DNA of 35,716 nt. Origin: Nocardioidaceae bacterium (GTDB lineage Bacteria > Actinomycetota > Actinomycetes > Propionibacteriales > Nocardioidaceae). Of this stretch, positions 18,036 to 35,198 are shown in pieces. A program made the position numbers and the translations under genes. The first letter of the stretch is position 1. Each line of letters starts with the position of its first letter. The stretch covers positions 1-35,716 of the forward strand of contig JAICWH010000022.1 of NCBI GenBank assembly GCA_025934895.1, given 5' to 3'. Under the pieces are notes generated by a model. The model was not told the DNA's origin, made no database searches, and worked only from the letters and a program-made list of their open reading frames with translations.

Positions 18036-19202
18036 ATGACCGACTACCCGATGTATGCGCCGTCCGAGGAGCACCTCGCGATCCGGGAGGCGGTCCGGGC
18101 CGTCTGCGACGCCAAGGTCGCGCCGTACGCCGCGGAGGTCGACGAGGCGAGCAGCTTCCCCCAGCAGGCCTACGACGCACTGGTGGCAGCCGACTTCGCC
18201 GCCCCCCACATCGGCGAGGAGTACGGCGGAGCCGGAGCCGACGCACTCGCCACCTGCATCGTCATCGAGGAGGTGGCCCGGGCCTGTGCGTCCTCCTCGC
18301 TGATCCCCGCGGTCAACAAGCTCGGGACGATGCCGGTGATCCTCGCCGGGTCGGAGGACCTGAAGAAGCGGTACCTCTCCCAGGTCGCGGCCGGCGCCGG
18401 GATGTTCTCCTACTGCCTCTCGGAGCCGGAGGCCGGCTCCGACGCCGCGGCGATGCGGACCAGGGCGGTCCGCGACGGCGACGACTACGTCCTCAACGGC
18501 GTCAAGAGATGGATCACCAACGCCGGGGTGTCGCAGTTCTACACGGTGTTCGCGGTCACCGACCCCGACCGACGCGCCGGCATCTCCGCGTTCGTCGTGG
18601 AGAAGGACGACCCGGGTGTCTCCTTCGGCGCGCCGGAGAAGAAGCTCGGCATCAAGGGGTCGCCGACCCGGGAGGTCTACCTCGACAACGTGCGGATCTC
18701 GGCCGAGCGGATGATCGGCGAGGAGCACACCGGCTTCGCGACGGCGATGCGGACGCTGGACCACACCCGCGTGACCATCGCCGCTCAGGCGGTGGGCATC
18801 GCGCAGGGGGCCCTGGACCACGCGCTCGGCTACGCCAAGGAGCGGCGCCAGTTCGGCAAGCCGATCGCGGACTTCCAGGGACTGCAGTTCATGCTCGCCG
18901 ACATGGGCATGAAGGTGGAGGCCGCCCGCCAGCTCACCTACGCCGCGGCGGGCCGCTCCCAGCGCAACGACCAGGACCTGACGTTCTTCGGCGCCGCAGC
19001 GAAGTGCTTCGCCTCCGACACGGCCATGGCGGTCACCGTGGACGCGGTGCAGGTCCTGGGCGGCTACGGCTACACCCGCGACTATCCGGTGGAGCGGATG
19101 CTGCGCGACGCCAAGATCACCCAGATCTACGAGGGCACCAACCAGGTCCAGCGGATCGTGATGGCCCGCCAGCTCCTCGCCGGGATCCAGTCCGACCTCT
19201 GA
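18036..19202 (+). CDS. Acyl-CoA dehydrogenase, FadE25-like
   Basis: FAD-dependent acyl-CoA dehydrogenase, 388 residues, closely resembling mycobacterial FadE25 (Rv3274c), which also neighbours purE/purK. Shared stretches include [54 protein letters not shown] (substrate signature), [18 protein letters not shown] and the C-terminal [20 protein letters not shown] followed by [12 protein letters not shown], in which the Glu is the catalytic base. The substrate is not determined; short or branched acyl-CoA is plausible. It differs clearly from the dehydrogenase at 1906, so the two are not a recent duplication. Confidence 0.95.
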
Positions 19203-19283: not shown

Positions 19284-20390
19284 ATGGCCGTGCGCACCGT
19301 GGGTGTCGAGGAGGAGCTGATGCTCGTCGACCCGGACACCTTCCACCTCGCGCCGGTCGCCGCGTCGGCGGTCCGAGCAGCCCGCGCCACCCGCAGCACC
19401 CGCGCCGACGAGGCCGACGTGCAGCCGGAGCTGTTCGACCAGCAGCTCGAGACCGCCACCCCGCCCTGCCGCAGCGCCGAGGATCTGCTCGCCGGCATCC
19501 GCTCCGGGCGCCGGACGGCGGAGGAGTCCGCGACGGCGGCAGGGGTCCGCGCCGTGGCGGTGGCGACGCCCGTCCTGCAGGAGGAAGAGCCGGACTTCAC
19601 CCAGGCGCCCCGCTATCAGAGGATCGGTGCCGACTACGGCGAGCTGGCCCGCCAGGCCCTGGTCTGCGCCACCCACGTGCACGTCGAGGTCGCCGACGAG
19701 GACGAGGGCGTGCGGGTGATCGACCGGATCCGCCCGTGGCTGCCGTTGCTGCTCGCGCTGAGCGCCAACTCGCCGTACTGGGAGGGCCGCGACACCGGGC
19801 ATGCCAGCTGGCGCTCACAGGTGTGGAGCCGGTGGCCCACCGCCGGCAGCGGCCAGCCGTTCGGTGACGTGGCGACCTACCGCTCGGTGGCGTCGTCGAT
19901 GATCGGCTGGGGCGGCGCGCTCGACACCGGGATGCTGTACTTCGACGTGCGGCTCTCCGAGCAGTTCCCCACCGTCGAGGTGCGGACCGCAGACGTGACC
20001 ACCGACGTCGAGGACGTGGTCCTGCTCACGCTCCTGACGCGCGCACTGGTCGCCACTGCCGCCGAGGACCAGGAGGCACCGACGTGGCGGGCCGACCTCC
20101 TGCGGGTGGCCGGATGGCGCGCCGCCAGGTTCGGTCTGGCCGCCGACCTGGTGCACCCGCACAAGGCTCGGCTCGCGCCGGTCCGCGAGGTCTTCGACGC
20201 GGCCGTGCGACACGTCCGACCGGCACTGGAGGAGGCAGGCGACCTGGAGCGGGTGACGGAGTCCTTCGCGCGGCTGAGCGCCCGCGGCACCGGCGCCACC
20301 CGGCAGCGCAGCGTCTTCGAGGCGACGGGCGACCTGCGTGCCGTCGTGGCGGACCTCGCCGAGCGCACCGAGGCCTCCTGGTCGGACTGA
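19284..20390 (+). CDS. Carboxylate-amine ligase, GCS2/YbdK family (glutamate-cysteine ligase-like)
   Basis: Predicted ATP-dependent ligase joining glutamate to an amine, of the glutamate-cysteine ligase type 2 group; 368 residues. The N-terminal VGVEEELMLVDPDTFHL is the family hallmark, followed by ELFDQQLETATPPCRSAEDL, VCATHVHVEVAD, LLALSANSPYWEGRDTGHAS and PTVEVRTADVTTDVED, the conserved metal and substrate blocks. AGGAGG stands 4 nt before the ATG at 19284. Actinobacteria use such enzymes for gamma-glutamylcysteine (for example in ergothioneine synthesis), but no other thiol-pathway gene is nearby, so the substrate is open. Confidence 0.92.
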   Translation: MAVRTVGVEEELMLVDPDTFHLAPVAASAVRAARATRSTRADEADVQPELFDQQLETATPPCRSAEDLLAGIRSGRRTAEESATAAGVRAVAVATPVLQEEEPDFTQAPRYQRIGADYGELARQALVCATHVHVEVADEDEGVRVIDRIRPWLPLLLALSANSPYWEGRDTGHASWRSQVWSRWPTAGSGQPFGDVATYRSVASSMIGWGGALDTGMLYFDVRLSEQFPTVEVRTADVTTDVEDVVLLTLLTRALVATAAEDQEAPTWRADLLRVAGWRAARFGLAADLVHPHKARLAPVREVFDAAVRHVRPALEEAGDLERVTESFARLSARGTGATRQRSVFEATGDLRAVVADLAERTEASWSD

Positions 20391-20468: not shown

Positions 20469-21362
20469 TCAGTCCTGCCAGGGGTAGAACGGCGGCATGT
20501 CCGTCGTCCGCCCGGTGAACCTCGGCTCGCGCTTCTCCCGGAACGCCGCAACACCCTCCTTGCCGTCGCCGATGCTCGTGAAGAACATCGCCAGCGAGTC
20601 GACGCGGTGCGCCTCGAGCGGGTGCCGCTGGGCGCTGTTGCGCCACATCATCTGCCGGGCAAGGGCGGTCGCCACCGGTGAGCGGTTGCGGGTGAAGCGG
20701 TGAGCCAGATCACGTGCCGCGTCGAGCAGCTCCCCCGGTGGGTGCACCGAGCGGACCAGGCCGCCCTCGTGGGCCTCGGCGGCGGTCAGGATGTCGGCGG
20801 AGTAGACCCACTCCAGAGCGCGGCTGATGCCCACGATCCGCGGCAGGAACCAGGAGGAGCAGGCCTCCGGGACGATCCCGAGCCGTCCGAAAACGAAGCC
20901 GATGCGAGCCGCCTCGGAGGCCAGCCGGACGTCCATCGGAAGGGTCATCGTGGCGCCGATGCCGACGGCCGCGCCGTTGATGGCGCCGATCACCGGCTTG
21001 CTGCACCGGAACACCGCGAGTGACACCAGGCCGCCGGTGTCCCGCACTCCGGCGAGGATCTCGGGGTCCTCGAGGCGGCTGCGCATGTCGTCGTTCGTGG
21101 GTCGCATCGACTCGTCGAGGCCGAAGACGTTGCCGTCCGCGGACAGGTCCATGCCCGCGCAGAAGGCGCGCCCGCGGCCGGTCACCACGACCGCCGCGAC
21201 GCCGTCGTCCCGGTCGGCGCGCTCGAAGGCGCGCACCAGCTCCTCGGCCATCGTCAGCGTGAACGAGTTGAGCTGGTCGGGACGGTCGAGGGTCAGGGTC
21301 AGGATGCGGTCCTCCACCGAGTAGTCCAGGGTGCGGTAGTCACCCACCGACGGGTCAGCCAC
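20469..21362 (-). CDS. Enoyl-CoA hydratase/isomerase (crotonase family)
   Basis: Crotonase-fold enzyme of 297 residues, probably hydrating enoyl-CoA esters in beta-oxidation. LTLDRPDQLNSFTLTMAEEL opens the domain; GRAFCAGMDLS is the first oxyanion-hole segment and INGAAVGIGATMTLPMDVRL the second. The pair of catalytic glutamates of classical hydratases is only partly evident: FVFGRLGIVPEACSSWFLPR carries the second acidic residue, whereas the first position is less clear, so an isomerase or other crotonase reaction remains possible. The GTG start at 21362 overlaps the LCP stop by 8 nt, an odd pairing of a lipid enzyme with a wall ligase in one transcript. Confidence 0.88.
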   Translation of the reverse strand: MADPSVGDYRTLDYSVEDRILTLTLDRPDQLNSFTLTMAEELVRAFERADRDDGVAAVVVTGRGRAFCAGMDLSADGNVFGLDESMRPTNDDMRSRLEDPEILAGVRDTGGLVSLAVFRCSKPVIGAINGAAVGIGATMTLPMDVRLASEAARIGFVFGRLGIVPEACSSWFLPRIVGISRALEWVYSADILTAAEAHEGGLVRSVHPPGELLDAARDLAHRFTRNRSPVATALARQMMWRNSAQRHPLEAHRVDSLAMFFTSIGDGKEGVAAFREKREPRFTGRTTDMPPFYPWQD

Positions 21363-22578
21363 CGGCCAGCCCGCTCGCCCGGCACAGGTTCCTGGTCACG
21401 TCCTGGGTCCGGTCCTCCTTGATCAGCGCGAACAGCTTCTTCGAGCGCACCGGGTCCCAGTGCACGGCGAGGTCGGAGATCGGCACGCCGCAGGTCAGCC
21501 CGCTGGTGCCGTTCACCCGGGTCATGGCGTAGGTGAACCGGGCGGTCGAGAGCAGGCTGGTGTCCGTGCCCACCTTCACCGCGTGCGCGCCCGCCATCGC
21601 GAGACGGTAGTAGCGCACCGGGTTGACGACCGTCCACGGGGAGGCGGCCTTTGCGCCGACCGCGCTGACCACCTGGCGCTGGTGCTCCGCCCGGGCGATG
21701 TCGCCGAGACCCGAGGTGTGCCTCGAGCGGGCGTAGCCGAGCGCGACCCGGCCGTCCACGTCCTGGCAGCCCTTCTTGATGTCGAGGTTCGCGAGCCGGT
21801 CCCGCATCGCGTGCTTGGGGCAGATGCGGATGCCGCCGACGGCGTCGACCACGTCGACGAACCCGGCGAACCCGACCTGGACGTAGTCGTCGACGCGGAT
21901 GCCGGTGTTCGCCTCGATGGTCCGCACCAGCAGCTGCGGGCCGCCGTACGCGTAGGCGGCGTTGATCTTGGTGGTCCCGTGCCCCGGGACCGGAACGATC
22001 GAGTCCCGCGGGATCGACATCAGCAGGTCGGGTCCGGCCCCGGTGTGCAGCAGCATGATGGTGTCGGTGCGCTGCCCGGCCGCGCTGCCGGTGCCCAGCC
22101 GCCGCTTCTGAGCGGCGCTCAGCCCCTGCCGGCTGTCGCTCCCGACGAGCAGGTACGTCGTGCCCTTCTGTGGCGCCGGACGACCGCCGCTCGGCGTGGC
22201 GTCCACCTTGTCCACGGACCGCCAGGCAAGCACGGGTACGACGACCAGGAACACCAGCCACAGCACGACCAGGTAGAGCAGCCAGCGCAGTCGGAAGCGG
22301 GGCCGTCTTCTGCCACCGCCGCCGAGGGGACCCCGCCGCGGGGCCTGGGGTGGGGCCTTGGGTGGAGCCTGGTGCGACGGCGGCCCCGGGACCCGGCCGG
22401 ACGGGGGCGCAGGCACCTGGTAGGGGCCGCCCGAGGATGGCCGGTCGACCACAGGCAGCCGCTGGGTGGGCTCCGGGTCCACGGGGCTGCCGGTCGACGC
22501 CGGCCCCCGGGAGCCGTAGAGCCAGTCGAAGTCTGGTCCTTCGCGGCCGTCCGGGTCCTGCGAGGGGCGGTCTGCCAT
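21355..22578 (-). CDS. LCP (LytR-CpsA-Psr) family wall-polymer transferase
   Basis: Predicted to move a polymer from its lipid carrier onto peptidoglycan outside the membrane. 407 residues: a Pro/Gly-rich cytosolic tail (1-92), one membrane helix (about 99-119) and an extracytoplasmic LCP domain. Visible motifs are YLLVGSDSRQG, GQRTDTIMLLHT, LLMSIPRDSIVPVPGHG and KINAAYAYGG, with GYARSRHT later; the conserved arginines that bind the pyrophosphate are present (RTD, IPRDS, ARSR). It is divergent from a second LCP gene next to the galactan genes, which suggests it attaches that polymer. TAGCGT lies 6 nt before its ATG. Confidence 0.93.
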   Translation of the reverse strand: MADRPSQDPDGREGPDFDWLYGSRGPASTGSPVDPEPTQRLPVVDRPSSGGPYQVPAPPSGRVPGPPSHQAPPKAPPQAPRRGPLGGGGRRRPRFRLRWLLYLVVLWLVFLVVVPVLAWRSVDKVDATPSGGRPAPQKGTTYLLVGSDSRQGLSAAQKRRLGTGSAAGQRTDTIMLLHTGAGPDLLMSIPRDSIVPVPGHGTTKINAAYAYGGPQLLVRTIEANTGIRVDDYVQVGFAGFVDVVDAVGGIRICPKHAMRDRLANLDIKKGCQDVDGRVALGYARSRHTSGLGDIARAEHQRQVVSAVGAKAASPWTVVNPVRYYRLAMAGAHAVKVGTDTSLLSTARFTYAMTRVNGTSGLTCGVPISDLAVHWDPVRSKKLFALIKEDRTQDVTRNLCRASGLAGG

Positions 22579-22590: not shown

Positions 22591-22701
22591 CCCTGCCGCC
22601 CCAGGCCGGCCCGGGCGAGACCTTCGGCGCGCCGCGGCCGGTGTGACTGATGGGGTTGGTGATACTGGACCGTCGCCAGCCAGCAGTCGAAAGGCTCACG
22701 C

Positions 22702-24144
22702 ATGCCACCCGCTTCCTCCCCCGGGGTCGGCGCCGACGCAGCCTCCCGCGTCCGGTTCCGTCGCGCAGTGACCCTGCTGGTGATGACGCTCCTGCTGCCC
22801 GGCTCCGCACAGCTGGCGGCGGGTCGTCGCGGTGTCGGCAGGCTCGCGGTTCGGGTGGCCCTCGGGGTGCTGGGCGGTCTCGTGCTGCTGGTGGTGTTCG
22901 GCCTGGTCTGGCACGGGGTCGTCTACTGGCTGGTCAGCAGCACCCTGGCGCTGACCGTGCTGCGGCTTCTGCTGTGTGCCCTGGCGGTGGGCTGGGCGCT
23001 GCTGTTCCTGGATGCCTGGCGGCTCGGGCAGCCGCTGGAGCTGCGGCAGAAGCAGCGGCTGGCGGTGGTGGCACTGAACGGGGTGCTCTGCTTCGCGGTG
23101 GCCGGCACGTTGCTGTTCGCCTCGCACATGGTCGCGGTCCAGAAGGGCTTCATCACCGCGATGTTCGGCAACGGAGCGGTCTCCGGGGCGCACGACGGCC
23201 GCTACAACGTGCTGCTGCTGGGCGGGGACTCGGGTGCGGACCGGTGGGGGATGCGCCCGGACAGCCTCACGGTGGCCAGCATCGACGCCCGGACCGGCAG
23301 GACAGTGCTGTTCGGGCTGCCCCGCAACATGACCGGCTTCCCCTTCCCCCACGGGTCGGTGATGGCAGGGCGGTTCCCCGCGACGTACGACTGCTCGACC
23401 TGCGAGCTCAACAGCCTCGCCACCTGGGCCCGGGACCACCAGAGCCTGTTCAAGGGCGATCCGAACCCCGGCGTCGAGGCGACGACCGAGGGCGTCGAGG
23501 GCATCACCGGGCTGAAGGTCAACTACTACGCGATGGTCAACCTGCAGGGCTTCCGGGACATGGTCCAGGCGGTCGGTGGGCTCACGCTCAACGTCCGCGA
23601 CCGGATCCCCATCGGCGGCGTCGGCGGTCCGGTGACCGGCCACCTGGAGCCGGGCGTGCAGCGCCTCAACGGCTTCCAGACGCTGTGGTTCGCCCGGTCC
23701 CGGGAGAGCGCCGACGACTACTCGCGGATGGCGCGCCAGAAGTGCGTGATGAACGCCATGCTGCAACAGCTCTCTCCGTCCACCGTGGTGCTCAAGTTCG
23801 AGCGGATCGCCCGGGCGAGCGAGAAGCTGGTGACCACCGACCTGCCCGCCTCGGAGCTCGGCAGGTTCGTCGAGCTGGCGATGAAGGCCCGCTCCCAGCC
23901 GGTGCGGACGGTCTCGTTCGTCCCGCCGGCGATCAGCACCTCGCATCCCGACGTCGCGAAGATCCGCTCCATGGTCAGGTCGGCTCTCGACCGCTCGGTG
24001 GGCAAGGGGCCGAAGGCGCCTGCCGGTGCGGCACACCGCAAGGGGTTCTCCCCGGCCAGGAAGCAGACCGTGGGGGGCTCGGTCGGCAACATGCAGGACG
24101 GCTACGCCGCCAACGCCTCGAGCGACCTGTCGAGCGCCTGCTGA
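22702..24144 (+). CDS. LCP family protein with multi-helix N-terminus
   Basis: Second predicted lipid-to-peptidoglycan polymer transferase, 480 residues. About four hydrophobic segments occupy residues 20-150, unlike the single helix usual for LCP proteins. The LCP domain starts near RYNVLLLGGDSGADRWGMRPDSLT, then FGLPRNMTGFPFP, and a Cys pair in YDCSTCELNS. WFARSRESADDYSRMARQK is the late Arg-rich motif. A GAAAGG sequence 7-8 nt before the ATG could be the ribosome site. It heads the forward run that continues with the galactosyltransferase, glf, glfT2-like and exporter genes, so a role in anchoring their product is likely. Which of the two LCP proteins does this cannot be told. Confidence 0.92.
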   Translation: MPPASSPGVGADAASRVRFRRAVTLLVMTLLLPGSAQLAAGRRGVGRLAVRVALGVLGGLVLLVVFGLVWHGVVYWLVSSTLALTVLRLLLCALAVGWALLFLDAWRLGQPLELRQKQRLAVVALNGVLCFAVAGTLLFASHMVAVQKGFITAMFGNGAVSGAHDGRYNVLLLGGDSGADRWGMRPDSLTVASIDARTGRTVLFGLPRNMTGFPFPHGSVMAGRFPATYDCSTCELNSLATWARDHQSLFKGDPNPGVEATTEGVEGITGLKVNYYAMVNLQGFRDMVQAVGGLTLNVRDRIPIGGVGGPVTGHLEPGVQRLNGFQTLWFARSRESADDYSRMARQKCVMNAMLQQLSPSTVVLKFERIARASEKLVTTDLPASELGRFVELAMKARSQPVRTVSFVPPAISTSHPDVAKIRSMVRSALDRSVGKGPKAPAGAAHRKGFSPARKQTVGGSVGNMQDGYAANASSDLSSAC

Positions 24145-24172
24145 GCAACCGGTGCCACCGGCGCCGGCACGG

Positions 24173-24178
24173 TACGGT
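24173..24178 (+). promoter_or_regulatory. Putative -10 box of the double glycosyltransferase gene
   Basis: TACGGT ends 7 nt before the GTG at 24186. It favours that GTG over the in-frame GTG at 24177, which would overlap the box. Confidence 0.45.
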
Positions 24179-24185
24179 GCCCCCC

Positions 24186-25982
24186 GTGCCTCCACTCGCC
24201 GACGTCTGCGCCGTGGTGGTCACCTGGAACCGTCGCCGGCTCCTGGTGGAGGCGCTCGCGGCCCTGGAGGGCCAGACCCTGCCGCCCCGCCGGATCGTGG
24301 TCGTCGACAACGCCAGCACCGACGGGACGAGCGAGCTGCTGCGCACCGACTACCGGCACCTCGAGGTGGTCTCGCTGCGCTCCAACACCGGAGGGGCCGG
24401 AGGGTTCGCGGCAGGCATCGAGAGGGCGCTGACCTTCGACCCCGAGCTCGTCTGGCTGCTCGACGACGACACCGTCGCGACCCCGACCGCCGCCGAGCGG
24501 CTGGTCACCGCCTGGTCGTCGTACGGCGCCGGCGAGCTGCCACGCCCGGCCTTGCTCGCCAGCCGGGTGGTCTGGACCGACGGCCGCGACCACCCGATGA
24601 ACACCCCACGGGTCAAGCCGGGCGTGTCGTCGGCCGAGCGCGCCGCCGCCGCCGCGGTCGGCGCGGTGCCGATCCGCTCGGCGTCCTTCGTCTCGGTCAT
24701 GTGCGACGCCTCGGTGGTCCGCGACCGGGGCCTGCCGGTGGCCGACTACTTCTTGTGGAACGACGACTTCGAGTACTCGACCCGGCTGATCCGCTCGCGG
24801 GTGGGCCTGGCCGTCCCGGCCAGCGTCGTGGTCCACAAGACCTCGACCTTCGGCTCGACGGATGTGGACCCAGGCGAGCGGTTCGTCCTGGAGGTCCGCA
24901 ACAAGGTCTGGCTGTTCACCCGCAGCCGTGGCCTCGGGCCGGTCGAGAAGCTGGTCTACGGCGGCTCGACGCTGCGCCGCTGGGCCCGCACCATCGCCCG
25001 CTCGCGTGACCGTCGCACGCTGCTCCTCGGTCTCCGCACCGGACTGGCCGCGGGCCTGCGGACCCGTCCTCGGACCAACGGCGAGGTGCTCACCGCCGCC
25101 GGCTGGTCGCCGCACGACGGCCACCCCGGCGGTGGGCCCGGTGCCCGCGCGGAGCCGTTCTCGCTGCTGATCGCGGTCTGGCGTGGCGACGACCCCGCGT
25201 TCCTGCGTGACGCGTTCGTCTCGAGCGTGCAGGAGCAGACCCGGCGCCCCGCCCAGGTGGTGCTCGTCCAGGACGGTCAGGTGCCCGAGCCGTTGGCGGA
25301 GGAGATCGCCCGCCTGGTGGCCACCAGCCCGGTGCCGGTCGACCACGTCGTGATGGCGGACAACCTGGGGCTGGGCCCGGCCTTGGACCGGGGGCTGGCC
25401 GCGTGCCACCACGAGATCGTGGCCCGGATGGACGCCGACGACGTCAGCCTCCCGGTCCGCTTCGAGAGGCAGCTGCCGATGATCGAGGCGGGCGCGGACA
25501 TCGTCGGCAGTGGGCTGCTCGAGTTCGGGTCCTCGGTGGACCAGGTGGTGGGCCGTCGCACGCCTCCGACCGACCCCGACGAGATCCGCCGGGTGATGCG
25601 GTTCCGGGACCCGTTCAACCACCCGACGGTGGTCTACCGCCGCAGCGCCGTGCAGGCGGCGGGCGGCTACACCGACATGGCGCTGATGGAGGACTACCTG
25701 CTCTTCGCCCGCATGGTGGACAGCGGAGCGCGACCGGCGAACCTCGCCGAGCCGCTGGTCCGCTACCGGGTGGGGGCCGGTGCCTACGCCCGCCGGGGCG
25801 GCCGGCAGCTGCTCCGCTCCGAGCTCGCGGTGCAACGCCGCTTCCACGAGCTGGGGATCACCACGCGCCCGCAGTACGTGCGCAACGTGGTCGTCCGCGG
25901 GGGGTACCGTCTCGTGCCCGTGGGGCTGCGACGGCTCGCCTATCGCGCCCTGATCGCCAACCGCGGCGGCACCGGCCGATAG
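24186..25982 (+). CDS. Two-domain glycosyltransferase: GlfT1-like GT2 fused to a second GT2
   Basis: One 598-residue polypeptide with two GT-A domains. Domain 1 (about 4-290) resembles mycobacterial galactofuranosyltransferase GlfT1: VCAVVVTWNRRRLL, IVVVDNASTDGT, NTGGAGGFAAGIERAL, WLLDDDT (metal motif) and FLWNDDFEYSTRL. Domain 2 (about 320-590) is of another GT2 branch (AmsE/EpsE-like): SLLIAVWRGDDPAFL, QVVLVQDG, NLGLGPALDRGLA, IVARMDADDVSLPVRFERQL and MALMEDYLLFARM. Both have DDD/DAD metal sites, so both could be active. No membrane segments. Start GTG 24186, after a TACGGT box. glf and a GlfT2-like gene follow, so domain 1 probably starts a galactofuranose chain; the job and sugar of domain 2 are unknown. 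Confidence 0.88.
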   Translation: MPPLADVCAVVVTWNRRRLLVEALAALEGQTLPPRRIVVVDNASTDGTSELLRTDYRHLEVVSLRSNTGGAGGFAAGIERALTFDPELVWLLDDDTVATPTAAERLVTAWSSYGAGELPRPALLASRVVWTDGRDHPMNTPRVKPGVSSAERAAAAAVGAVPIRSASFVSVMCDASVVRDRGLPVADYFLWNDDFEYSTRLIRSRVGLAVPASVVVHKTSTFGSTDVDPGERFVLEVRNKVWLFTRSRGLGPVEKLVYGGSTLRRWARTIARSRDRRTLLLGLRTGLAAGLRTRPRTNGEVLTAAGWSPHDGHPGGGPGARAEPFSLLIAVWRGDDPAFLRDAFVSSVQEQTRRPAQVVLVQDGQVPEPLAEEIARLVATSPVPVDHVVMADNLGLGPALDRGLAACHHEIVARMDADDVSLPVRFERQLPMIEAGADIVGSGLLEFGSSVDQVVGRRTPPTDPDEIRRVMRFRDPFNHPTVVYRRSAVQAAGGYTDMALMEDYLLFARMVDSGARPANLAEPLVRYRVGAGAYARRGGRQLLRSELAVQRRFHELGITTRPQYVRNVVVRGGYRLVPVGLRRLAYRALIANRGGTGR

Positions 25983-26015: not shown

Positions 26016-29193
<3,178 letters not shown>

Positions 29194-29197
<4 letters not shown>

Positions 29198-30132
29198 CCA
29201 CGCACCCTGATCCCGTACGCATCGAACCCGTGCTGCAACCGGCGCCCGACCTCGCGCCGCCGTTCTCCAAGGGCGGCCTGATCGAGGTCTTCCGCCGCCG
29301 CTACCTGCTCAAGCTGCTGGTGCAGAAGGAGGTTCGCTCCCGCTACCAGGGCTCCCTGCTCGGCGTGATGTGGTCCTACATCCAGCCGATGGTGCGGTTC
29401 TGCATGTACTACTTCGTGATCGGGCTGGTGCTGGGCCTGCACAAGTCGTTCCCGAACTTCGCGATCCACATGTTCTCCGCGATCGTCGCGATGCACTTCT
29501 TCACGGAGACGTTCTCCTCAGGCACGCGCTCGGTCGTGAAGAACAAGTCCATCGTCCGCAAGATGCCGATGCCGCGTGAGATGTTCCCGGTCGCCTCGGT
29601 GATCGTGTCGGCCGTCAACACCTTCCCCCAGCTGGCGATCCTGTTCGTCGCCTCCGTGGTCGCGGGCTGGAGGCCGGACGTGGTCGGCGTGCTGGCCGCC
29701 TTCCTCGGGCTCGCGATCGTCACGGTGCTCGGCACCGCGCTCGCGCTGCTGTTCGCCGGTCTCAACGTGTTCTTCCGGGACTTCCAGAACATCGTGTCCA
29801 CGTTCATGGTGCTGACCACCTGGATCGTGCCGATGATCTACCCGTTCGAGAAGGTCGCCACCAGTGGCCTGGGGCACAACCACGTCTTCTACAGCATCTA
29901 CATGTCCGACCCGCTGACGATCGCGGTGGTGCTGATGCAACGCGCCTTCTGGATTCCCACGGCGCTCGGCAAGGACGGCTTCCCCGACCAGCTCGGCGAT
30001 GTCGGCTTCCCCTACCTGCCCCACAACTACATGGAGCTCGGGCTGCTGATGCTGGGCGTCTCCTGCATCATCCTGGTGCTCTGCCAGATGGTGTTCCGGC
30101 GCCTCGAGGGCAAGTTCGCGGAGCGCCTGTGA
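29194..30132 (+). CDS. ABC-2 type polysaccharide export permease (Wzm-like)
   Basis: Membrane subunit of an ABC exporter for a lipid-linked polysaccharide; 312 residues with six predicted membrane helices starting near residue 62. The N-terminal VQKEVRSRYQGSLLGVMWSYIQPM is the amphipathic entry and first-helix region typical of Wzm/TagG permeases; FFRDFQNIVSTFMVLTTWIVPMIYP is the conserved later block. GTG 29194 overlaps the GlfT2-like stop (GTGA) and AGGAGGAG lies about 6 nt upstream. In mycobacteria Wzm/Wzt export galactan, and its position here directly after Galf genes supports the same cargo. Confidence 0.93.
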
Positions 30133-30163: not shown

Positions 30164-30958
30164 ATGACGGTCTCGGTCCAGGTGGAGCACGCCACCAAGC
30201 AGTTCACCCTGCGCTACCACCGCACGATCAAGCAGATCACGATCGCGGCGATGCGCAGGCAGAAGATCAGCGACACCTTCAAGGCGGTCGACGACGTCTC
30301 CTTCACGGTCCAGCAGGGTGAGTCGATCGGGCTGATGGGGCTCAACGGCTCCGGCAAGAGCACGCTGCTCAAGCTGGTCAGCGGGGTGATGAAGCCGGAC
30401 TCGGGGTCGGTGCTGACCCGGGGCCGGATCGCGGGACTGATCGCCACCGGGGCGGGCTTCCACCCCCAGCTCAGCGGACGCGACAACGTCTACCTCAACG
30501 CTGCGATCCTCGGGATGACCGAGGCGGAGACCAAGCGCAAGTTCGACCAGATCGTCGACTTCGCGGACATCGGCAGGTTCCTCGACACCCCGGTGGGGCA
30601 CTACTCCTCGGGGATGTTCTCCCGCCTCGGGTTCGCGGTGGCCGTGCACACCGAGTCGGACATCTTCCTGGTCGACGAGGTGCTCGCGGTGGGCGACAAG
30701 CCGTTCAAGCGCAAGTGCATGGCCCGGATGCAGGAGATCCGTGACGAGGGCCGCACGATGCTCTACGTCAGCCACGCCGCCGCCTCCGTGCGGCAGATGT
30801 GCGACCGGGTGCTGGTGCTCGAGAAGGGCGTGCTCGGATTCGACGGGCCGGTCGACGAGGGCATCCGATACCTGCACTACGACGACGCCGACACCGACGA
30901 GAAGCCCACTGACGTCGTCGACGACACCGAGGACGAGGTGCTCGGCGCGGACGTCTGA
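30164..30958 (+). CDS. ABC exporter ATPase (Wzt-like)
   Basis: ATP-binding subunit partnering the permease 31 nt upstream; 264 residues. Walker A is GLNGSGKS with K65, the signature is YSSGMFSRLGFAVA and Walker B is DIFLVDEVLAVGD, followed by the H-loop in LYVSHAA. TFKAVDDVSFTVQQGESIGL and RGRIAGLIATGAGFHPQLSGRDN are typical polysaccharide-exporter sequence. It lacks the C-terminal carbohydrate-binding domain of many Wzt proteins, like the mycobacterial galactan exporter, which fits export that does not read a chain-end cap. AAGGAGG lies 7 nt before the ATG at 30164. A palindrome 11 nt after the stop may end the transcript. Confidence 0.95.
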   Translation: MTVSVQVEHATKQFTLRYHRTIKQITIAAMRRQKISDTFKAVDDVSFTVQQGESIGLMGLNGSGKSTLLKLVSGVMKPDSGSVLTRGRIAGLIATGAGFHPQLSGRDNVYLNAAILGMTEAETKRKFDQIVDFADIGRFLDTPVGHYSSGMFSRLGFAVAVHTESDIFLVDEVLAVGDKPFKRKCMARMQEIRDEGRTMLYVSHAAASVRQMCDRVLVLEKGVLGFDGPVDEGIRYLHYDDADTDEKPTDVVDDTEDEVLGADV

Positions 30959-31087: not shown

Positions 31088-33181
31088 ATGGCCCAGAACA
31101 GAAGCCGGTTCGTGCTCCTGTGTCAGCAGACCCTGGCGTTCGGCGTGGTCGTCGCGATCGCCGCCCCGGCCGCGAACCTGGTGACCCTCGAGATCGTCGC
31201 GCCACCGCAGCCCCGGACCGAGGCACGGGCGCAGCCGACCGGAGGTGCCGCCGGCACCGTCTCGGTGGTCGCCTCGCGGCCGGTGCGGCCGCAGGTCAGA
31301 AGGGTGCCGCTGCGCGGCGTGAGCAAGGCCGGTCTGCGTGCCCTCGGCGGCCGTGGGGTCGCGGCCGCCCGACTGACGTCCGCGAGCACCGGCCGGTCAG
31401 CCGGTGGGTCGGGGGCGGACCGGCTCACGGCGCTGTCCGCGCCGCAGCCCGTGCACGGGCTGGCCACGGTGGGGGTGACCTGGGCGCACGGGGTGCAGGT
31501 CCCCGACCGGGCGATCACCATCTCGGTGCGCACCCAGCGCAGCGGGACCTGGTCCGCGTGGACCGGGGTGCCCTACCACGAGGACGAGGGCCCGGACCCC
31601 ACGAGCGCGGAGGGCGGGGCCGCCGCGCCGGGCACCGACCCTGTCTACGTCGGTGCCGTGGACGACGTACAGGTCAAGGCGCTCACCGACACGGGCACCG
31701 CACCCGCCGGGATGAAGCTGTCCCTGGTCGACCCCGGTCGCCAGGTGGCTGCGCGCGCCGAGCAGCCGGCCATCGACACCGGCCGGCTGAGCCTCTCGGC
31801 CACGACCTCCACCGAGGCGTCGCGGGCTGCGGCACGGGTCACCGCCAAGCCACGGATCTTCTCGCGGGCCCAGTGGGGAGCCGACGAGCGGATGCGGGAG
31901 CGCTCGGCGCTGCACTACGGGGAGGTGCACGGCGGGTTCGTGCACCACACGGTGAACGCGAACGGCTACACCGCCGCCCAGGTCCCGGCGATCATCCGCG
32001 GCATCTACGCCTACCACACCCAGTCGCGCGGCTGGTCCGACATCGGCTACAACTTCCTGGTCGACCGCTTCGGGCGGATCTGGGAGGGCCGGTACGGCGG
32101 CGTGACCCGTCCCGTCGTGGGCGCGCACACGCTGGGCTACAACGACGACGCGTTCGCGATGTCGGCGATCGGCAACTACGACATCGCCCAGCCGTCCCCG
32201 GCGATGGTCGACGCGTTCGGTCGGCTGTTCGCGTGGAAGCTCAGCCTGCACGGCGTGTTCGCATCCTCGCGACGGCAGTGGATCTCCAGGCGCTACCTGC
32301 CGGCGATCGACGGCCACCGCGACGTCGGTCAGACCGCCTGCCCCGGGCGTTACCTCTACGCCCAGATCCCGACGATCCGGGCTCGCGCCGCGCGCTACCA
32401 GCGCTCCTTCGCGCCTCGGGTCCGGACCACCCGGGTAGCGGGCAGCAGCCGTCCGGTGATCGTCGCCCGCGACCGGCGGACCAGGCAGGTCTGGCTCGTC
32501 TCGACCCGGCCGGACGGGACCGCCGGGCGGATCCGCAACACCGGCACCAGGTTCCCGCACGCGAACCTCGTGCTGAACGCGGGGGACTGGGACGGCGACG
32601 GGCGCGGCGACCTGATCACCCGCTCGGCCAGGACGGGGCTGCTCAACCTCTACCGGGGCGCCGCGGGCGGACAGCTGCGCGCTCCGGTGCTGATGAGCAG
32701 GACCAGCTTCGGGCGCGACCGACTGCTGGCCGCCGTCGGTGACATGACCGGGGACGGGCGCCCGGACCTGATGGGTCAGCCCGTGGGTGGTGCGATGCGG
32801 ATCTTTCCGGGCAACGGGGCCACGGGCTTTCACGGCGGGTACGTCGCCCACTCGGCGATCAGTGCCATCTCCCAGCTCGGCGTCGGGTTCTACAACGGGG
32901 ACGGGTCGCCGGACTCTGTGCTGCGGCGCAGTGACGGGACGCTGGTGCTCTACCCGGGCAACGGCCCCGGCGGGCTGACCGGAGGGACGCGGATCGGCTC
33001 TGCCGGCCGCAACTACGACTGGGTGGTCTCCGTGGGGGACATCACCGGCGACCGTCGCCCGGATCTGGTGGCTCGGGCAGCGGTGACCCATCGGATGTGG
33101 CTGCTGCCCGGGTCGCGGGACGGGTTCGTCTCGCGCCGGTCCTTCCGCACGGGCATGGGCCGGTTCGACCTGTTCGGGTAG
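31088..33181 (+). CDS. Secreted PGRP/N-acetylmuramoyl-L-alanine amidase with FG-GAP repeats
   Basis: Predicted exported peptidoglycan amidase, 697 residues. A hydrophobic segment at about 10-36 is a signal or anchor. Residues 60-255 form an Ala/Thr-rich region with a WAHGVQVPDRAITISVRTQR beta domain. The PGRP/amidase_2 domain starts at PRIFSRAQWGAD; zinc ligands appear to be H286 (in FVHHTVN), H410 (GHRDVGQ) and C418 (TACPG). The C-terminal part (about 435-697) has four FG-GAP/VCBS-like repeats: GDWDGDGRGDL, GDMTGDGRPDL, FYNGDGSPD and GDITGDRRPDL, probably a propeller binding wall glycan. AGGGGAGCG precedes the ATG. It lies 129 nt after the exporter genes. Function as wall hydrolase or sensor is inferred. 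Confidence 0.93.
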   Translation: MAQNRSRFVLLCQQTLAFGVVVAIAAPAANLVTLEIVAPPQPRTEARAQPTGGAAGTVSVVASRPVRPQVRRVPLRGVSKAGLRALGGRGVAAARLTSASTGRSAGGSGADRLTALSAPQPVHGLATVGVTWAHGVQVPDRAITISVRTQRSGTWSAWTGVPYHEDEGPDPTSAEGGAAAPGTDPVYVGAVDDVQVKALTDTGTAPAGMKLSLVDPGRQVAARAEQPAIDTGRLSLSATTSTEASRAAARVTAKPRIFSRAQWGADERMRERSALHYGEVHGGFVHHTVNANGYTAAQVPAIIRGIYAYHTQSRGWSDIGYNFLVDRFGRIWEGRYGGVTRPVVGAHTLGYNDDAFAMSAIGNYDIAQPSPAMVDAFGRLFAWKLSLHGVFASSRRQWISRRYLPAIDGHRDVGQTACPGRYLYAQIPTIRARAARYQRSFAPRVRTTRVAGSSRPVIVARDRRTRQVWLVSTRPDGTAGRIRNTGTRFPHANLVLNAGDWDGDGRGDLITRSARTGLLNLYRGAAGGQLRAPVLMSRTSFGRDRLLAAVGDMTGDGRPDLMGQPVGGAMRIFPGNGATGFHGGYVAHSAISAISQLGVGFYNGDGSPDSVLRRSDGTLVLYPGNGPGGLTGGTRIGSAGRNYDWVVSVGDITGDRRPDLVARAAVTHRMWLLPGSRDGFVSRRSFRTGMGRFDLFG

Positions 33182-34100: not shown

Positions 34101-35198
34101 ATGTCCGAGTCGCTCACCACGGTCCCCGTCAAGGCCGTCATCGTCGCGGGCGGGTTCGGAACCCGGCTGCTGCCGCTGACGACCAACCGCCCCAAGCACC
34201 TGCTCGAGGTCGGCGGGGTGCCGTTCCTCGAGCACCAGATCAGCCGGCTCGCGGCGGCGGGGGTCGCACACGTGGTGGTGGCCACCTCCTACCGCGCGGA
34301 GCTGTTCGAGCCGGTCCTCGGCGACGGGGGCCGCTGGGGCATCCGGGTGGACTACGTGCAGGAGGCCGCGCCGCTCGGCACCGCCGGTGCGATCCGCAAC
34401 GTGGCCGCTGCCCTCGGCGACGACCCCGAGGGCGCGGTGGTCGTGCTCAACGGTGACGTGCTGTCCGGTCACGACCTGCCCGCCCAGCTGCGCGACTTCG
34501 CGACCCCGCGCGAGGGACGCCCGGTCGACGTGTCCCTGCACCTGGTGGAGGTCGCGGACGCCCGCGCGTTCGGCTGTGTCCCCACCGACGGCTCCGGCCG
34601 GGTGACCGGCTTCACCGAGAAGTCCGAGCAGCCGGTGACCAACCAGGTCAACGCCGGCTGCTACGTGTTCCGGCGACGGGTGGTCGACGCGATCCCCGAG
34701 GGCCGGGTCGTCTCCGTGGAGCGGGAGACGTTCCCCGCGCTGGTGCGTGAGGGTGCGCTTGTGGTCGGGTACGTCGAGAACGCCTACTGGCGCGACGTGG
34801 GGACCCCGACCGCGCTGGTCGCGGCGTCCCGGGACCTCGTCCTGGGGACGGCCACCAGCCCCGCCGTGCCCGCCGGGGACCAACGGGCCCGGATCGACGA
34901 CGAGGCGATCGTGGACGTGACCGCCCGGGTCGACGGCGGGTCCGTGGTCGCCCGCGACGCCACCGTCGGCAAGGCCGCCGTGGTCACGGGCAGCGTGCTG
35001 ATGCCGGGCGCCGCCGTCGAAGCCGAGGCGGTGATCGTCGACTCGGTGCTCGGCCCCCGGGCCCGCGTCGGACGGGCCGTCCGCCTCGCGGGGGTGACGG
35101 TCGGCGACGACGCCGTCCTCGACCCAGGGGCGGTCCTCGAGCCGGGCCGGCGGGTGGATTGCGGCGCCGTCGTGGCGGCTAGTGGAGCACCGAGCTGA
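34101..35198 (+). CDS. NDP-sugar pyrophosphorylase (mannose-1-phosphate guanylyltransferase-like)
   Basis: Nucleotidyltransferase making an NDP-sugar, 365 residues. The GT-A-like domain opens with AVIVAGGFGTRLLPLTTNRPKHLLEVGG (signature GGFGTRL with the catalytic Arg and PKHLL Lys). It continues with EAAPLGTAGAIRN, VVLNGDVLSG (metal Asp), GFTEKSEQP and NAYWRDVGTP. Residues 260-365 form a left-handed beta-helix of hexapeptide type. This is the layout of actinobacterial ManB/Rv3264c-type GDP-mannose enzymes, but glucose-1-phosphate uses cannot be excluded. ATG 34101 is preferred because GAGAGG lies 9 nt upstream; ATG 34092 would touch it. Its 3' end overlaps the VTT gene by 20 nt, tail to tail. 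Confidence 0.9.
   Translation: MSESLTTVPVKAVIVAGGFGTRLLPLTTNRPKHLLEVGGVPFLEHQISRLAAAGVAHVVVATSYRAELFEPVLGDGGRWGIRVDYVQEAAPLGTAGAIRNVAAALGDDPEGAVVVLNGDVLSGHDLPAQLRDFATPREGRPVDVSLHLVEVADARAFGCVPTDGSGRVTGFTEKSEQPVTNQVNAGCYVFRRRVVDAIPEGRVVSVERETFPALVREGALVVGYVENAYWRDVGTPTALVAASRDLVLGTATSPAVPAGDQRARIDDEAIVDVTARVDGGSVVARDATVGKAAVVTGSVLMPGAAVEAEAVIVDSVLGPRARVGRAVRLAGVTVGDDAVLDPGAVLEPGRRVDCGAVVAASGAPS

Follow-up and report, generated by a model that had tools for sequence, protein, structure and literature searches.

In a 35,716-nucleotide stretch of DNA from a Nocardioidaceae bacterium (GenBank assembly GCA_025934895.1, contig JAICWH010000022.1, hereafter the window), a single open frame of 598 residues joins two different glycosyltransferase domains of family GT2, which we call N (amino-terminal) and C (carboxy-terminal). 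The reading that we favour, with a probability of roughly 0.55, is that the fused protein is a two-step priming enzyme for the wall galactan made by the polymerase GlfT2, in which C would add a galactopyranose (Galp) and N the first galactofuranose (Galf). For every sugar transfer, we infer which donor and acceptor are used, and in what order, from sequence, gene order, fold and co-occurrence.

In the proposed pathway, a WecA-type enzyme, presumed here, would make N-acetylglucosamine-diphosphate-prenyl (GlcNAc-PP-prenyl) on the cytoplasmic side. C would take UDP-Galp and add galactose to this carrier, as WbbD does in Escherichia coli O7, and would replace the mycobacterial rhamnosyltransferase WbbL. 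N would replace GlfT1, taking UDP-Galf and adding the first Galf, with Glf, the product of the next gene, supplying UDP-Galf from the same UDP-Gal. GlfT2 would then extend the chain, Wzm-Wzt would export the galactan, and an LCP enzyme would attach it to peptidoglycan. The fusion would hold two early steps on one chain, which the chemistry would not need.

The fused frame and its packaging in related genomes

The frame, whose coordinates and those of its neighbours are given in Table 1, starts with GTG and ends with TAG; translation could equally well begin at an in-frame GTG at 24177. When the halves were scanned separately, each matched PF00535 (Glycos_transf_2), with 62.2 bits for 24186-25115 and 54.3 bits for 25146-25982. 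An AlphaFold2 model built from 44 fused sequences, the window's and those of 43 relatives, contains two GT-A domains (mean predicted local distance difference test 88.6, predicted template modelling score 0.71), and its joint at residues 313-318 is disordered or poorly ordered. The aspartates of the two metal motifs (93-95; 416, 418 and 419) are invariant in the same 44 aligned sequences. An earlier sequence-only reading of this DNA had described one 598-residue frame with two GT-A domains, each with its own metal motif, and had proposed structure prediction as a check; Pfam, the model and the invariant aspartates all bear this out. Its further statement that the second half comes from a different GT2 branch than the first agrees with the profile scores given below.

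That reading had also raised the prospect of a stop or sequencing error hidden between the domains. The GC content at third codon positions is 0.86-1.00 throughout the gene (22 steps of 50 codons) and passes the junction without a break; therefore, no hidden frameshift was seen. The source genome comprises 3.9 Mb in 247 contigs, and its nearest relatives in our tree are Nocardioidaceae, the nearest named one being Nocardioides jiangsuensis. The full-length fusion is present in five of six congeners; in G005, the sixth, its halves fall on separate contigs. That annotation or assembly merely merged two genes is conceivable from related genera, where one gene runs a few bases into the other and a single indel would join or part them. 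However, 43 of 75 related loci were fused, including those of named isolates, single-contig genomes (G003, G004, G018) and several families; together with the congeners and the steady third-position GC, this locus survey makes an artefact extremely improbable, and we rejected it. A longer open frame of 1110 residues from the mechanical list (22650-25982) was also rejected as one gene, as its first part overlaps the LCP gene at 22702-24144 in another frame.

The survey was drawn from the best 80 of 189 matches, a set that leans to near relatives. Its count covers 75 of 79 loci in named records, with L079, L088, L108 and L110 left out as incomplete, and L151, which has C without N, was also set aside. 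Both domains were fused in 43 loci, encoded by adjacent genes in 22, and dispersed within ~8 kb in 10. In six of seven adjacent cases inspected, the downstream gene begins before the upstream one has ended (e.g. ATGGCTGA in L084 and L089), and in the seventh, from Leucobacter (L059), the two are separated by a longer stretch. The fused state requires at least six changes on a tree of 88 pairs, obtained from 95 complete rows by removing repeats, with four changes forced by well supported branches. Fused forms were observed in Nocardioides/Marmoricola, Geodermatophilaceae, Kineococcus, Micrococcaceae, Actinomycetaceae, a Tetrasphaera, and one of three Arsenicicoccus; split forms were observed in other Nocardioidaceae, Leucobacter, the two remaining Arsenicicoccus, Jatrophihabitans, and Actinomadura. 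Close orthologues encoded as two genes, which the sequence-only reading had named as a finding that would speak against it, thus do occur outside the nearest genera (32 of 75 loci unfused). Because the same pair sits on neighbouring or nearby genes in those 32 loci, the fusion itself carries little weight as a sign that two sugar transfers are made together. The biological unit is the conserved N-C pair, and the fusion is a recurrent packaging of it.

Some irregular copies were also seen. Genome G105 has a split pair plus another copy that looks fused and has one stop within the match (G105:C7:2963-4450; G105:C1:943169-944940). The C gene of Leucobacter coleopterorum (L082:9000-9856) lies in two overlapping frames, from a frameshift or a sequencing error. 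In Arsenicicoccus, a second C-like gene lies a few kb from the pair (L083:12299-13171, EpsE 79.7 bits; L102:12365-13222).

Affinities of the two domains

The best NCBIfam match of N is the GlfT1 model NF050113, which scored 75.4 bits with the whole protein and 72.0 bits with the N half, below its cut-off of 330. In profile-profile comparisons, N scored 213 with GlfT1, 87 with GlfT2, 77 with the WbbL-type protein, and 54 with C. Two GlfT1-like proteins encoded beside Glf in other Nocardioidaceae (N1 and N2; G012, G145, G182) scored 245 and 224, and a third GlfT1-like kind, X15, scored 198. N, GlfT1 and GlfT2 have in common the GGxGG and DDD motifs, RN, and the D that opens the third motif, and DDD is invariant in the 44 fused sequences and in the aligned GlfT1, N1, N2, X15 and GlfT2 rows. 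His217 is invariant in N, but is not shared with them. The best single-domain fold match listed for N is the GlfT2 of Nocardia (9nj0; Z 22.4, root-mean-square deviation (rmsd) 3.0, 271 residues aligned).

By these comparisons, N belongs to the GlfT1 clan, but is not classed as GlfT1; the earlier description of the first half as GlfT1-like holds for the profile score and stops short of the curated family. N resembles GlfT1 in its GT2 fold, its GGxGG, DDD and RN motifs, and the company of Glf, GlfT2, Wzm and Wzt, and a true GlfT1 takes its place in one genome (G175, see below). It differs in having only 28% identity (profile alignment), DD where GlfT1 has DE in the third motif, a fused second glycosyltransferase, and an acceptor sugar that is probably not rhamnose. 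N was also considered as the polymerase and rejected, since GlfT2 is a separate gene; Glft2_N and GlfT2_domain3 are absent from the fusion in the Pfam scan and present in the neighbour at 27185-29197. Other GlfT1-like genes were observed in similar surroundings: N1 and N2 stand in tandem between LCP and Glf, replacing the N-C pair, in three Nocardioidaceae loci (L124, L164 and L167, from G012, G182 and G145), and X15 lies near Glf or GlfT2 in G015, G019, G024 and G127.

For C, the NCBIfam model EpsE gave a weak match (69.9 bits, cut-off 450); E. coli WbbD has EpsE as its single NCBIfam match at E up to 1e-10 (76.9 bits). A profile of C matched WbbD at 215 bits (E 2e-63, residues 7-272 of 275), while WbbL, GlfT1, GlfT2 and N were all below 10 bits. 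In BLASTP, C and WbbD are 30% identical over 270 positions, and WbbD retains 38 of the 46 residues that do not vary among 26 C domains, including the three aspartates of DxDD. The likeness is thus one of full-length homology, with shared DxDD, PFNHP, GGY, ED and RRGG motifs. WbbD is annotated as UDP-Gal:alpha-D-GlcNAc-diphosphoundecaprenol beta-1,3-galactosyltransferase (NC_017646.1), and C is probably a GlcNAc-PP-prenyl galactosyltransferase of the WbbD/AmsE/EpsE type. WbbD differs in being a single-domain O-antigen enzyme of a Gram-negative bacterium, whereas C is joined to a Galf-transferase-like domain in a wall-galactan operon. C was also tried as a WbbL homologue; this was ruled out, as the C profile scored 4.8 bits with the WbbL-type protein of G269, compared to 32 bits for the N profile. 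The best solved chain in the PDB with a like profile scored 39.5 bits. The PDB neighbours gave no lead to the donor sugar, the matches being generic GT2 folds in a fold list that mostly covers residues 318-585. As a side note, wbbD of the O7 cluster is split by IS1 in records of the E. coli B and BL21 type.

The donor of C is where a first alternative arises, namely that C adds glucose, GlcNAc or mannose rather than Galp to GlcNAc-PP-prenyl, with the linker still rhamnose-free. The DxDD motif is described, and characterised DxDD GT2 enzymes transfer galactose or glucose (excerpt of PMC4202792). In the window, ManC is encoded 8 kb downstream, many related loci also have a ManC gene, and EpsE, the best NCBIfam model for both C and WbbD, names no donor. 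However, ManC also stands beside the WbbL-type gene in G269, so it is not a pointer to C. The characterised relative WbbD uses UDP-Gal, and C adjoins Glf, which interconverts UDP-Galp and UDP-Galf. We therefore consider a different sugar unlikely and Galp the better candidate.

Company of the pair and the supply of rhamnose

We evaluated an evenly sampled set of 236 genomes of the class. N was found in 12 (10 genera, 8 families), GlfT2 in 51, and GlfT1 in 24 at E up to 1e-40, 22 of them over the curated cut-off. All 12 genomes with N have GlfT2 (G266 weakly) and none has GlfT1; within the 51 GlfT2 genomes, GlfT1 was observed in 0/12 with N and 23/39 without it. Fisher tests, uncorrected for kinship, gave P of 3e-9 for N with GlfT2, 2e-4 for the exclusion of N and GlfT1 inside the GlfT2 set, and 1.5e-3 for N versus WbbL inside that set. 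Across all 236 genomes, neither N versus GlfT1 (P 0.62) nor N versus WbbL (P 0.07) was significant. Among 39 nearer relatives, GlfT2 was found in 16 of the 17 genomes with the pair; G020, which is 85% complete, has none.

The WbbL query was chosen by gene order, between ManC and RmlD in G269, and is taken here to be WbbL; no NCBIfam model bears that name. Orthologues were counted at E up to 1e-60, a threshold set after seeing a gap between 2.5e-64 and 3.5e-33, and were found in 53/236 genomes, including 21 of the 22 with GlfT1 over the cut-off and none of the 12 with N. G175 is the sole GlfT1-over-cut-off genome without a WbbL orthologue, and it has C at 57% identity and no N. Its cluster (L151; G175:C8:582001-602000) runs Wzt-Wzm-GlfT2-Glf-C, with GlfT1 (370 bits) divergent beside it, so GlfT1 can stand in N's position and C is present where WbbL is absent. 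This locus is a natural mix of both priming systems.

Other combinations were also observed. Two genomes with looser GlfT1 matches, G012 and G040, have neither WbbL nor C; in G040 (L152, L168), the GlfT1 relative (245 bits) is accompanied by Glf, GlfT2, Wzm and Wzt, and no WbbL orthologue, C or RmlC match was found. Sixteen GlfT2 genomes have neither N nor GlfT1 at the limits used, and in the four inspected (G024, G127, G145, G182) other GlfT1-like genes are in place. G261 has GlfT1 and WbbL with no GlfT2 match.

These patterns bear on a second alternative, in which C acts after N or GlfT2, either as a decorating or capping enzyme of the galactan or by building an alternating Galp-Galf stretch jointly with N. 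Chains of two glycosyltransferases that make alternating polymers are known, and one of them, K4CP, is the best whole-chain fold match of the fusion. WbbM also joins Galf and Galp transferases (excerpt of PMC12269835). Furthermore, GlfT2 is absent from within the cluster of N, C, Glf, Wzm and Wzt in nine Nocardioidaceae loci (L037, L071, L084, L085, L089, L093, L094, L095, L097) and three from Actinomycetaceae. However, GlfT2 was found elsewhere in the genome in all three such genomes searched (G007, G013, G017), which weakens these clusters as a sign that N and C polymerise alone; the isolates of L037, L061, L062 and L081 were unsearched. GlfT2 also accompanies N throughout the class sample, and G175, which has C but lacks WbbL, argues for an early step. 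A late-acting C is accordingly rather improbable. The alternating polymer that the sequence-only reading had offered is unlikely because GlfT2, the polymerase, has a gene of its own in the operon and is likewise encoded in all 12 genomes with N of the class sample and in 16 of the 17 relatives with the pair; the Actinomycetaceae clusters without GlfT2 leave it some room. Downstream of N-C-Glf-Wzm-Wzt, those three clusters carry a second GlfT1-like gene (L061:14258-14899, L062:14261-14899, L081:14232-15017).

A rhamnose-free linker, as the priming role implies, was examined through RmlC, which is needed on the only known bacterial route to dTDP-L-rhamnose. PF00908, the RmlC family, is absent from 10 of the 22 genomes that have both domains, of which two (G014, G018) are single-contig and 98-100% complete, and from 9 of 30 genomes reached via loci of named strains, including the fused N. 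jiangsuensis; completeness figures are lacking for these 30. In the genomes without RmlC, the pair therefore cannot, by known routes, build a rhamnose linker. The two sets apparently overlap by two genomes, judged by identical coordinates (G010/G273, G254/G295), both with RmlC, and the set of 30 includes L110, whose locus shows N alone, and L082, with its broken C.

Several observations weigh against a WbbD-like priming step. RmlC is present in 12/22 and 21/30 genomes, so rhamnose use is possible there, and the window's own genome has two PF00908 genes, leaving the RmlC test silent on it. Some members of the WbbD/AmsE/EpsE group differ from WbbD in specificity or have none assigned: a plasmid gene annotated as AmsE scored 129 bits, close to the 142 of WbbD, and a Parabacteroides gene scored 155. 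DxDD is also found in a rhamnosyltransferase module of Klebsiella O7 (excerpt of PMC11231755). In the genome sample, 32 of the 53 genomes that encode a WbbL orthologue lack GlfT1 over the cut-off, 20 of the 22 genomes behind the WbbL/GlfT1 pattern come from one family (f7), and C-like proteins at 41-42% identity occur without N in G145 and G268. The Actinomycetaceae loci (L061, L062, L081) have no GlfT2 in reach, and it was not searched for elsewhere. Finally, a two-hybrid study in Corynebacterium glutamicum, in the excerpt available, reports no WbbL-GlfT1 contact (PMC4213368).

The suggestion of a different linker is nevertheless favoured by the WbbD, WbbL and RmlC comparisons and is well supported as a hypothesis, with the transfers themselves being what we infer. 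In a broader form, with slightly less than even odds, many actinobacteria outside the mycobacterial group may prime peptidoglycan-bound galactan on a rhamnose-free GlcNAc-Galp linker via a WbbD-type and GlfT1-type pair, fused in several lineages and drawing on both ring forms of UDP-galactose.

The operon and known systems

The gene order in the window is LCP, fusion, Glf, GlfT2, Wzm, Wzt (Table 1), and the glfT2 start overlaps the glf stop by four bases. The order LCP-N-C-Glf was observed in 29 of 36 loci from Nocardioides, Nocardioidaceae and Propionibacteriales, and the other seven are cut by contig ends (L032, L036, L049, L079, L088, L090, L103). The gene content suggests that the operon serves to make and export a galactofuran bound to peptidoglycan.

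Table 1. Features of the fused gene and its surroundings in the window
Feature	Positions	Strand	Evidence
Fused two-domain GT2 glycosyltransferase, 598 residues	24186..25982	+	Open frame, Pfam, third-position GC, alignment, AlphaFold2
N domain, GlfT1-clan galactofuranosyltransferase-like GT-A, residues 1-305	24186..25100	+	NF050113 72 bits, profile score 213 with GlfT1, fold match 9nj0
Metal motif DDD of N domain, residues 93-95	24462..24470	+	Alignment
Interdomain linker, ~17 residues, disordered in model	25101..25151	+	Alignment, AlphaFold2
C domain, WbbD/AmsE/EpsE-type GT2, probable GlcNAc-PP-prenyl galactosyltransferase, residues 323-598	25152..25979	+	WbbD profile match, BLASTP
DxDD motif (DADD) of C domain, residues 416-419	25431..25442	+	Alignment
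LCP-family glycopolymer transferase, directly upstream	22702..24144	+	PF03816 75.7 bits
Second LCP-family protein, divergent	21355..22578	-	PF03816 146.6 bits
Glf, UDP-galactopyranose mutase	26016..27188	+	TIGR00031 330.7 bits, over cut-off
GlfT2, polymerising galactofuranosyltransferase	27185..29197	+	PF19320, PF17994 over cut-offs
Wzm-type ABC-2 permease (galactan export, predicted)	29194..30132	+	PF01061 43.3 bits; NF050109 43.2 bits, below cut-off
Wzt/TagH-type ABC ATPase	30164..30958	+	PF00005 78.6 bits; NF050108 152.8 bits, below cut-off
N-acetylmuramoyl-L-alanine amidase with FG-GAP repeats	31088..33181	+	PF01510, PF13517
ManC-type mannose-1-phosphate guanylyltransferase, start chosen by homology	34128..35198	+	NF052502 407 bits, cut-off 440

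Three known systems offer comparisons. The WbbL-GlfT1 pair of arabinogalactan also primes a GlfT2 galactan on prenyl-PP-GlcNAc by two successive transfers, as would happen here, but with a rhamnose linker and two separate mycobacterial genes, and C has no usable similarity to the WbbL-type protein. The GlcNAc-rhamnose linker is the described start of GlfT2 galactans (excerpts of PMC10951656 and PMC4213368). The nearest working parallel is the adapter of Klebsiella O2a, where WbbO adds Galp to undecaprenyl-PP-GlcNAc (excerpt of PMC11231755). That system shares an ABC-exported, Galf-containing glycan, a Galp adapter on the same carrier, and two glycosyltransferase modules in one chain, WbbM (excerpts of PMC11231755 and PMC12269835). 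However, WbbM combines GT111 with GT8 and polymerises, whereas the window's fusion has two GT2 modules and a separate GlfT2 to polymerise; GT111 (DUF4422) and GT8 were not among the Pfam matches of the fusion, which list GT2-type families alone. K4CP chondroitin polymerase and heparosan synthase likewise have two GT2-type GT-A domains in one chain, but they polymerise a repeating disaccharide, and with 14% identity the whole chains superpose poorly (rmsd 14.8). Among the literature matches listed, we found no published GlfT1 fusion, galactofuran of Nocardioides or Actinomadura, or WbbD-type galactan linker, in a coverage that leaves structural work on actinobacterial wall polymers largely outside.

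Should GlcNAc-Galp prove to be the linker here, rhamnose transfer would be one solution among several. The natural N-C chimeras and the mix of GlfT1 and C in G175 would then serve the study of how Galf transferases choose their first acceptor, a choice called unresolved for GlfT1 in an excerpt of PMC11231755. The pair would also be a candidate genome marker for rhamnose-free galactan linkers, e.g. in Nocardioides, Leucobacter, Psychromicrobium and Actinomyces.

Left of the cluster lie ordinary metabolic genes, for an acyl-CoA dehydrogenase (18036-19202), a glutamate-cysteine ligase family 2 protein (19284-20390), and an enoyl-CoA hydratase (20469-21362). Finally, a GT2-containing open frame of ~930-1080 codons was observed in 15 of 25 Nocardioidaceae genomes, in some cases downstream of the cluster (e.g. 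G001:C13:211348, G017:C3:77002), and also in G011 (C7:161287) and G016, both of which have neither the pair nor GlfT2.

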